Part shown: positions 20,217 through 22,770 of the stretch, one piece after another | How positions within the stretch are numbered: the stretch's first letter is position 1 | How the letters are laid out: every line of letters begins with the position of its first letter | From: an uncultured Armatimonadota bacterium | Lineage (GTDB): Bacteria; Armatimonadota; Fimbriimonadia; Fimbriimonadales; Fimbriimonadaceae | Direction: 5' to 3' | Length of the DNA: 64,000 nucleotides | NCBI GenBank assembly: GCA_903833215.1 | Contig: CAILEM010000154.1 | Span: 1 to 64,000 of the forward strand | Notes under the pieces: model-generated | Databases searched by the model: none | What the model saw: only the letters and a program-made list of their open reading frames with translations | Told to the model about the DNA's origin: nothing | Translations under genes and position numbers: made by a program

Positions 20217-20912
20217 CTACGGCTTTAGCCGCGGGTCTCGGAACCATTGGACGTGGGTGTCTAACATGAGGCGGTTTCGGCCGCCTCGGTGAACTGAGGC
20301 GCCTTTGAGGTTCGCGGGCACGGCGGCGATGGTAGTGGGGAAGTAGGGATCGACAGCGAGTTCTACTTCGGCTGCACTGCTCGGGAAACCGGCTTGTGGG
20401 TTCTTGGCAGCTTGAATGTCAAGCACTCCCTGCTCAGTCGTTTTGCCCCAAAGGTCATCCAGAGGGACTGGGTCGAGGATTTGGTCGAATCGCCAAAGCC
20501 AGTAGCGGGTTGTCGGAGCTCCCACATCGGTTGTGGTTGGTTGGGCAACCTGGACCGATTCGCCCATGATCGAGCCCTTGATGCTTGGGCAGGTCCATAC
20601 CTCGACTGATTTTAAATAGGGCGCGAAGACGATCTCAGCCCATCCACCTCTCGGGTCGCTCGTGGGCCAGGAGTTCCATGGTTTCCATCCACCCGGGAGG
20701 GATTGTTTGAGGTCTCGCCGATCCGGAAGGCGCTGATCACTGTCGGATAGGTACATCTCAAACGCGTAGCCGACTTGCTTTAGGTTGTTGAGGCAGGTTG
20801 TCTTCTTCGCTGACTCCTTCACTTGGGCGAACACTGGAAAGAGGATTGCGGCAAGGATGGCGATGATCGCAATCACCACCAGAAGCTCAATCAAAGTGAA
20901 TGCGCGCCGCAT
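20217..20912 (-). CDS. Pseudopilin-like protein (prepilin N-terminus)
   Basis: 231 residues beginning [25 protein letters not shown] is the type IV prepilin/pseudopilin methylation motif, with Glu at +5, followed by [13 protein letters not shown] and a globular domain. The C-terminal segment [15 protein letters not shown] resembles the DGHxxx end of the DUF1559 group. It should be cut by a prepilin peptidase and sit in the inner membrane or a pseudopilus. No secretion apparatus genes are nearby. Only 9 bases separate its stop from the convergent dehydrogenase stop. Confidence 0.85.
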
Positions 20913-21066
20913 AGGGATGTCTACGAAAGGAGAAGGCGTTTGAGTCGATTCGATGAGAATTGGTTGCGCAGGATTTTACATCGGAAGCAGGACCGACTCC
21001 GATAAAATCGGTATTTTCGGGGCTATCGCATGCATTGATTATCGGCAAATTCCCACCATTCGGTAT

Positions 21067-21170
21067 GGTTCGCCAAAGGCAATGCTCTCGAAAAAGCGAA
21101 GGCTTGCGCTGGCGACAGCGCTAGCCTGGTAATCCCAATATGGCGTTCCTATGCCAAAGGCATTGCGTCA
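21067..21170 (-). repeat. 104-bp palindromic element, copy C (inverted)
   Basis: Reads GGTTCGCCAAAGGC ... AGGCTTGCGCTG-GCGA-CAGCGCTAGCCT ... ATGCCAAAGGCATTGCGTC. It is the inverted and diverged homologue of the two direct copies at 21247 and 21387, with the same length and the same hairpin layout. The main hairpin is at 21100-21127: five pairs, a T-T mismatch, six pairs, a tetraloop. Confidence 0.8.
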
Positions 21171-21246
21171 CCGGCCCTGGAGCGATCGACCTCTAGAGGT
21201 GGTTACATGAGTTACCACCGACGCGGGATGACGACCAACGCTTCCA

Positions 21247-21350
21247 GACGCATCCCTTTCAGGGATGACGATCCGGGTGGGGAGTCACCAGGCAAGCCCT
21301 GTCGACAGGGCATGCCTTCGCTTTATGGAGAAGATCGCCGTTGGCGAACC
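21247..21350 (+). repeat. 104-bp palindromic element, copy A
   Basis: Begins GACGCATCCCTTTCAGGGAT and ends GCCGTTGGCGAACC. The main hairpin at 21290-21317 has arms AGGCAAGCCCTG / CAGGGCATGCCT around TCGA, with one A-A mismatch. The start of copy B follows exactly 140 bases later. Confidence 0.85.
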
Positions 21351-21386
21351 GGATGATTTCGATCGTTGGGGGCTTCAACTTTTCCG

Positions 21387-21490
21387 GACGCATACCTTTC
21401 AGGGAAGGCGGCCCCGTTGGAGAGTCACCAGGCAAGCCCCGTCGACGGGGCATGCCTTCGCTGTTTGGAGAGGATCGCCGTTGGCGAACC
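21387..21490 (+). repeat. 104-bp palindromic element, copy B
   Basis: Direct repeat of copy A. The hairpin at 21430-21457 reads AGGCAAGCCCCG / CGGGGCATGCCT around TCGA. Relative to copy A one T-A pair has become C-G on both sides, so pairing is kept. It ends 27 bases before the stop of the GH5 gene, so it could also serve as its transcript end. Confidence 0.85.
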
Positions 21491-21517
21491 GGAATCTCGG
21501 TTGCTTTTGGAGCTGTG

Positions 21518-22669
21518 CTAATTCACCTTGTAGAGGTGTTTCAACGTCACTGGATCTAACACGACTTTCCCGTCTTTAACTGATCGGCCGAAACCGAACG
21601 CGTCGTCGTATCCCCAAACGGCGTTGGGGAGGCCGAGTTTTTGGATCGCGTCGTGGGCTGCATCGAACCAATGGGCCCGTGATTCCAATGGACAGACGGG
21701 TGGGTAGGAGCCAAATTCTCCTAAAAGAACGGGGACGTGGTTTTGGGCACCCCATCGCATTCCCGCACTGAATCTCTCCAAAAGATACTGGGCGCCATAG
21801 CGCTTTTCACCGTAGTCGCGTACCGAAGCTTGATATTCAGCGGGGAGCTTGTTGATCATTGCCTCTACTGCTTCAGGGCTTGAAGGGAATGGAATGTCAC
21901 GCATCACCTTTTGCTGCTCGCCTGTCCATGTCGCACCCTGGTGGCTGAACAGGAATGGGTCGTAGCAATGGAATGAGTAGATGAGGTTCTTCGCCTCAAG
22001 GGGCTTCATGGCAAGGAGAGCATCGATGCCGTTCCATGCTGTTGACGCAACCATGATTGTGCGCTTGGGGTCGATGGCCCGAACTGCGGCAACCGTCTTG
22101 GCTTGAAGTTCGTACCAAACGTTCGCATTCTGCTGGAAAACGGGTTCGTTGACAAGTTCGAATACGGTCGATGATTCTTGACGCCCTTTGTAATGTCGAG
22201 CCAGCGCTTCCCAGAATTTCGTGAAACCGCTGTTGTCATGACCGGGGGCATCCAATTTCATCTCCCCGTTGTCATGTAGATCCCAGAGGACGGCGAGTCC
22301 CGCTTTCTCTAGCTTGTCGATCGCTTGATCGATGTAACCCAGATTAGTGGCGTCAGGCTTGCCCTCACAGTAGATGACACCAGGTGTAACGCAAAGTCGA
22401 ACGAAGTGAATCCCCAGTTTCTTGAAATGCTGGAGGTCTTCATCGAGCAGGTACCCCTTGAAAGTGGCAGTGTCATCCGCCTTCACGTAACCAAACCATC
22501 GGGTGATGTTGACTCCGCGTGTGAGCTTGCTCATCAGGGCGGATGGAACTCCATTGGGCGCTTGTGCCAAGCTGCCTCCTTGAGGACCCGCCGCGGCTGT
22601 CGCCAAGGATCCTCCTACGATCACTGCCGCGCATAGAGCACGGCGATGTGCTGAACCAAAAAGTGTCAT
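21518..22669 (-). CDS. Secreted GH5 endoglucanase/mannanase-type enzyme
   Basis: 383 residues from the ATG at 22669, which has GCGAGG about 8 bases upstream and yields a signal peptide (MTLFGSAHRRALCAAVIVGG). An upstream GTG/TTG would add 12 residues. GH5 motifs are clear: LTRGVNITRWFG, DLQHFKKLGIHFVRLCVTP, VLWDLHDNG, VFELVNEPVFQQ (Glu of NEP is the acid/base) and VPVLLGEFGSYPP (Glu nucleophile). It would cut beta-1,4-glucan or mannan; the subfamily cannot be fixed by eye. The 3' end abuts a 104-bp palindromic element. The 5' region holds a CGTTAACG palindrome that may be an operator. Confidence 0.9.
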   Translation of the reverse strand: MTLFGSAHRRALCAAVIVGGSLATAAAGPQGGSLAQAPNGVPSALMSKLTRGVNITRWFGYVKADDTATFKGYLLDEDLQHFKKLGIHFVRLCVTPGVIYCEGKPDATNLGYIDQAIDKLEKAGLAVLWDLHDNGEMKLDAPGHDNSGFTKFWEALARHYKGRQESSTVFELVNEPVFQQNANVWYELQAKTVAAVRAIDPKRTIMVASTAWNGIDALLAMKPLEAKNLIYSFHCYDPFLFSHQGATWTGEQQKVMRDIPFPSSPEAVEAMINKLPAEYQASVRDYGEKRYGAQYLLERFSAGMRWGAQNHVPVLLGEFGSYPPVCPLESRAHWFDAAHDAIQKLGLPNAVWGYDDAFGFGRSVKDGKVVLDPVTLKHLYKVN

Positions 22670-22770
22670 ACGATGCCTCGCTGCGAAAGTGAGGTGCGGG
22701 AGCATGACGAAGCAGACCGTGCGCCGCCACGCAGTCGGCTCACCCTCTCATTCGGACTTTACCCGCTCGC

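Follow-up and report, generated by a model that had tools for sequence, protein, structure and literature searches.

The window analysed here, a stretch of 64,000 nucleotides from a contig of an uncultured member of the Fimbriimonadaceae (CAILEM010000154.1, positions 1 to 64,000), carries between positions 21062 and 21495 three units of ~109 bp in the order C, A, B. They lie between a type IV pilin-like gene on the left (20217 to 20912, minus strand; N_methyl, DUF1559-like) and a GH5 cellulase-like gene on the right (21518 to 22705, minus strand), both recognised from their ORFs and Pfam and both outside the element. Unit C (21062 to 21169, minus strand) is of type II, with the inner context GGCCGGTGACGC, and forms the left arm of an inverted pair whose right arm is unit A (21247 to 21355, plus strand), of type I with the inner context TTCCAGACGC; the pair spans 21062 to 21355, a REPIN/BIME-like form of ~290 bp with a spacer of 77 bp. 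Unit B (21387 to 21495, plus strand), also of type I, is an extra copy in direct orientation behind A, and the two are 88% identical over 104 bp (21247 to 21350 against 21387 to 21490) and 86% over 118 bp. An initial annotation made from the letters alone had described three 104-bp elements at 21247 to 21350 (A), 21387 to 21490 (B) and, inverted, 21067 to 21170 (C). All three are present there, and each extends a few bases past these limits, to a terminal AACCGGA. A covariance model built from 46 copies in this genome (R1) matches A, B and C with 105, 108.7 and 101 bits, respectively.

Each unit contains three hairpins. The innermost, H1, has a loop of TTC or the like, the central H2 one of TCGA or a similar sequence, and the outermost, H3, which precedes AACCGGA, one of GTT or TTT. 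On the plus strand, the hairpins H1, H2 and H3 lie at 21251 to 21267, 21290 to 21317 (inverted repeat I3) and 21332 to 21350 (ATCGCC-GTT-GGCGA) in unit A, and at 21391 to 21407, 21430 to 21457 (inverted repeat I4) and 21472 to 21490 in unit B. In unit C, on the minus strand and aligned in A1, they lie at 21149 to 21165 (columns 5-21), 21100 to 21127 (columns 47-75; loop TCGC) and 21067 to 21085 (columns 90-109). The hairpin of five pairs, a symmetric A·A mismatch, six pairs and a tetraloop that had been reported at first is H2 and is found in all three units, and the second reported hairpin (CATCCCT/AGGGATG against ATGCC/GGCAT) is found at the inner end; that inventory was right for these two hairpins and overlooked the third, at the outer end. 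The GT[AG]G foot canonical for REP elements is absent at H1 and H3. A [CG][AT]AG motif lies inside H2, at the mismatch, and occurs as GGGTAGC in many phyla and is absent from CCCAGGGCGTTGCCCTGGG forms.

The A·A stem mismatch is kept in 45 of the 46 aligned genome copies at H2, in 44 at H3 and in 34 at H1, and the outward boundary of the unit is sharp after AACCGGA, save for a weak G run. Because the structure was derived from the same 46 related copies, the shuffle and slide controls lean somewhat in its favour: 92.7% of the pair cells are paired compared with 72.8% after shuffling, pairing falls to 26-52% for every structure in which the partner was slid, and 210 cells are changed on both sides compared with 78.4 after shuffling, a number reached in 0 of 500 shuffles. 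The double changes bear out the earlier observation that pairing is kept between copies by covariation.

With copy A as the query, blastn returned 42 matches, far more than chance would give, in the genome, which is assembled into 6.2 Mb in 168 contigs. The genome scan with a covariance model that the initial annotation had proposed revealed at least 104 matches at E ≤ 0.001 (150 of 2363 candidates scored), and the number may be higher. With genes called simply from codon usage, 79 of 80 units are intergenic, and convergent gene neighbours are enriched (31 of 69 for the units compared with 30 of 143 overall, p = 0.0003). The many dispersed intergenic copies support the original guess of a repeat of the REP/MITE type, whose mobility we infer. 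Of 45 pairs of neighbouring units less than 400 bp apart, 31 are divergent, most of them separated by 73-77 bp, and the inverted pair is probably the mobile form. Some copies are in tandem, as are A and B in the window and those at a second locus (L020). Several copies lie at most a few hundred bases from the end of a contig (C56, C90, C109, C149, C150 and C79 of G000), and thus the assembly may break at the repeats and the copy number may be underestimated. Three inverted pairs have unusually long interiors (L018:2047-2610, L057:1347-2150 and L058:973-2085), and tblastn found no transposase remnants inside them.

A search with PF01797 (Pfam) identified seven Y1 genes in the genome. Four of these (L048-L051) encode proteins of 150-151 residues with the motifs DHVH, WQ and YI--Q--HH, and all four are flanked by hairpin arrays, of a different family at each. 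L049 and L051 have three-hairpin families of their own (GTCGCCCTTTCAGGGC... and CCAGGGCTGCGCCCTTCGCT..., respectively), and several parallel families therefore coexist in the genome. The gene at L048:3921-4454 (C25), of the subclass 1.2 type and with CCTAGGGCGATGCCCTAGG arrays, has on either side large ORFs that by eye resemble phage structural genes. Three-hairpin units are absent from the flanks of the genome's three class 2-like Y1 genes. Three further Y1 transposases with an NP-type Y motif, L052 (C99:28500-35000), L053 (C59) and L054 (C109), are flanked by other repeat arrays, for example CGTCGGTACGATCACCGCCGAC at L052, CCGGACGACGCCACGGAGACGTCGACTACGGGG at L054 and the TIR-like CCGGATGTTTCGTGCCGGCG at L053.

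The search for a REP-associated tyrosine transposase, likewise suggested at the outset, led to a single-copy HuH-tyrosine transposase gene (C50:399-851) with related units on both sides. Its two flanks match R1 in inverted orientation, at 37.4 and 21.8 bits compared with ~105 for the units of the window. The upstream flank carries the type II inner context GGCCGGTGACGC and the downstream flank the type I context TTTCCGGACGC, and the same two contexts also face each other in the ~290-bp pairs. Because the pairs share the contexts and the inverted layout of this locus, they resemble it with the transposase gene taken out. We regard the C50 gene as the leading candidate for the cognate enzyme, with a flank match that is not close. 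Since no transposase flank in the genome closely copies the window subfamily, the enzyme that amplified this subfamily may be another one, lost or unassembled.

Using blastn, we found no close DNA relatives of the units in 30 other genomes; relatives in other genomes were detected by the structure model instead. R1 matches number 45 and 31 in two congeners (G004 and G007, respectively), and none were found in ten further congeners or in eight genomes of other genera. The initial annotation had named the lack of other copies and of covariation in relatives as what would count against it, and the opposite was found, with at least 104 copies in the home genome, related units in two congeners and the module in other phyla. 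The transposase gene is enclosed by four R1 matches in G007 and by two in G004, and the gene is flanked by matches in other congeners as well. All 28 of the aligned transposases share DH.H, WQ and Y---Q--HH, and R1-type flanks are clustered on the transposase tree (4 changes compared with 7.8 after shuffling, 0 of 500 shuffles as low), a pattern that joint evolution of enzyme and unit would produce. A second, cross-phylum covariance model (R2) has matches in 8 of 14 genomes of the genus with the transposase gene and in 0 of 6 without it (p = 0.024).

At one orthologous site a pair is missing from a congener. In the genome that carries the window, hisG and pyrD converge on a spacer of ~350 bp with a unit pair, and in G004 (88% and 77% protein identity for hisG and pyrD, respectively) the genes lie a few bp apart with no unit between them. 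This difference is most simply read as an insertion, at one locus where loss and gain are not separable. Another ~60 bp around the pair also differ, which leaves the junction approximate, and no target-site duplication is obvious at this single site. Two congeners (loci L219 and L220) have a different ORF of ~1 kb between hisG and pyrD, with no unit. At the site of units C, A and B the empty site is not readable, because the GH5 and pilin genes are directly adjacent in no congener; in one congener locus (L241), a pilin-like match lies ~1 kb from GH5.

A scan of species genomes yielded 80 loci with homologous transposases, chiefly in Verrucomicrobiota and Planctomycetota and further, by record title, in Acidobacteriota, Bacteroidota, Chloroflexota, Armatimonadota and others. 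In the 300 bp on either side of these genes, 13.6% of the sequence lies in hairpins, compared with 3.7% in stretches 1.2 kb away, and a strict three-hairpin descriptor fits 58 of 148 outward flanks compared with 9 of 276 control stretches and 2 of 444 mononucleotide shuffles, both contrasts with the control stretches being inflated because these are partly coding. Flanks read inward also fit the descriptor (32 of 148), because each hairpin is palindromic by itself. The window unit can be aligned with units of these phyla and shares with them the surroundings of the H2 mismatch, which in the selected rows are TAG in one arm and CAA in the other. In the cross-phylum alignment, GCT after H2 is invariant, and 51 cells are double changes compared with 10.8 after shuffling (0 of 500). 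Of the 68 loci that were not part of the training set of R2, 32 have an outward unit by this model, 18 of them on both sides, and R2 matches adjoining the genes are outward in 74 cases compared with 11 inward. By this model, 36 of the 80 subclass 1.2 loci have no adjacent unit at E ≤ 0.001. At E ≤ 0.01, dispersed copies number 112 and 109 in two Verrucomicrobium genomes, 36 in Haloferula, 35 in a Verrucomicrobiota MAG, 20 in a Verrucomicrobiales MAG and 5 in an Akkermansia MAG, and none were found in a Terriglobus genome.

Compared with known systems, the units resemble REP, BIME and REPIN elements with their TnpA-REP (RAYT) enzymes in being imperfect palindromes of high intergenic copy number, in forming inverted pairs and in flanking a gene for a HuH-Y1 enzyme (PMC3116915, PMC2817692 and PMC8266576). 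As in the E. coli REP, where a mismatched bulge is required, the stem is interrupted (PMC8266576). They differ from the E. coli REP and Pseudomonas REPINs in carrying three hairpins in each ~109-bp unit, where those have a single one of 20-40 nt, in lacking a GT[AG]G hairpin foot, and in their enzyme, which has Y---Q--HH instead of the Y---NP type of class 2. The enzymes themselves bear the signature of TnpAY1 subclass 1.2, an assignment made by motifs and length: the published subclass is defined by Y---Q--HH, has DH[IV]H, WQ and about 148 residues, and was listed as REP 'no' and mostly in Cyanobacteria and Bacteroidetes (Quentin et al. 2018, PMC6006769), and the genes found here share its ~150 residues, DHVH, WQ and Y---Q--HH, low copy number and low identity within a genome. 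Unlike the published members, they are often flanked by three-hairpin units and occur in Armatimonadota, Verrucomicrobiota, Planctomycetota, Acidobacteriota and others. TnpAY1 class 3 also combines a Y1 gene with flanking non-GTAG structures in high copy (~600 in Solibacter) but is set apart by its description, with NHVH, W[TA], a Y motif ending in EQ without HH, and the foot CnGA (PMC6006769). In TIRYTs and TIRtrons, too, inverted repeats enclose a Y1 gene, and some of these repeats belong to dispersed families, but the enzymes are mostly of class 2.1 and many carry a GGGGWSAS motif; in the consulted passages of their description, a three-hairpin unit was not found (Di Nocera et al. 2013, PMC3733652). 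Literature searches, which covered open journals, few subscription journals and no preprints, returned no relevant paper for the hairpin strings of the module and no later work naming subclass 1.2. Overall, the elements agree with REPs and REPINs in copy number, placement, pairing and transposase linkage and depart from them in the GTAG foot, and our verdict is that they are an apparently new class of REP element, with three hairpins and no GTAG foot, tied to an orphan subclass of Y1 transposases.

We consider it very probable that the copies are non-autonomous REP-type mobile DNA units that a HuH-tyrosine transposase bearing the signature of subclass 1.2 has spread. This reading builds on the structure, the copy number and dispersal of the units, their absence at one orthologous site and their linkage to transposase genes in many genomes. 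Two inverted units make up the REPIN/BIME-like element of ~290 bp. Once its DNA is single-stranded, as it may be on the lagging strand, its hairpins would fold and be bound by the transposase, for which the analogous enzymes TnpA-IS200 and TnpA-REP lead us to expect binding of the folded single strand (PMC6006769 and PMC8266576). In the E. coli REP, the stem mismatch is required for activity, and irregularities of stem or loop help the enzyme to distinguish the strands (PMC8266576); the conserved A·A mismatches here may likewise mark the correct strand. GGAG before H3 and [CG][AT]AG at the H2 mismatch are no more than candidates for the guide. The enzyme would then cut and rejoin beside the unit, and in trans the pairs would be carried to new intergenic places without target duplication. 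For the window subfamily, the C50 gene could encode the enzyme that spread it.

It is unlikely that the units are instead the ends of autonomous insertion sequences of the IS200/IS605 type together with internal-deletion derivatives, an IS plus its MITEs. Elements of that type have a single subterminal hairpin at each end, frequently a tnpB gene, and copies with the gene that are nearly identical to each other. By sequence, the enzymes belong to the same superfamily as those of IS608 and ISDra2: the profile of the enzyme matches only IS200-type structures (IS608, ISDra2 and other IS transposases), and three of the four genes in the L048-L051 group exceed the NCBIfam transpos_IS200 cut-off. Subterminal hairpins of IS200/IS605 elements also contain an unpaired or mismatched base (PMC8266576). 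The likeness of the pairs to a transposase locus minus its gene would fit this reading. However, the four genes of the group are only ~45-66% identical to each other, each with its own repeat family, and the units, with three hairpins each, stand in inverted symmetry around the gene and outnumber it by about 100 to 1.

Very unlikely, in our view, is a structured RNA family, be it a cis-regulator, a terminator or a small RNA, acting in transcripts at gene ends. The intergenic position, the enrichment between convergent genes and the strong covariation would fit it, and stabilising or ending transcripts is a known side effect of REPs (PMC6006769). Against it, only 16 of the 1023 paired cells in the 46 copies are G·T, the other 1007 being Watson-Crick, and across phyla only 2 of 473 are. 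In ordinary RNA helices G·U pairs are not so scarce, and their near-absence here argues for pairing maintained in DNA rather than RNA, via selection on the hairpins or templated repair of quasi-palindromes. Further, the inverted pairs place a unit on both strands, and gene context is not constant, with linkage to transposase genes instead. A scan of the window element against Rfam gave no match at E ≤ 1, which leaves in place the suggestion of the initial annotation that this may be a new family. A riboswitch was dropped from consideration since both G·U pairs and a constant gene context are missing, and an integron attC site, considered from the GTTGGC end, was rejected because the R' box GTTRRRY does not fit. 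Least probable of all are passive repeats that the host retains (as gyrase, IHF or termination sites) and that spread through recombination or duplication, the transposase locus being just another insertion place: the bias towards convergent genes and tandem copies such as A/B and L020 speak for them, but the transposase link recurs in many phyla with outward symmetry, the six congeners lacking the gene have no R2 matches, and the genome's three class 2-like Y1 genes have no such units.

On a broader proposition we are evenly divided, namely that subclass 1.2 runs its own REP system in many phyla. Its enzymes would recognise three successive single-stranded DNA hairpins as one unit, with A·A stem mismatches and a GCT that always follows H2, and would use no guide made of a single hairpin and GTAG; enzyme and unit would co-evolve into a private family per genome. 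The elements give the HuH-tyrosine enzymes of subclass 1.2, left without a substrate or role by the published survey, a candidate substrate. The unit can be synthesised as an oligonucleotide, and R2 serves as a model for searches across phyla. REP/RAYT systems are thereby extended past GTAG elements to Armatimonadota, Verrucomicrobiota, Planctomycetota and others, dispersed families in these newly covered phyla can exceed 100 copies per genome, and the spread of REP elements can be put to the test in bacteria that are in culture, for example Verrucomicrobium and Haloferula.
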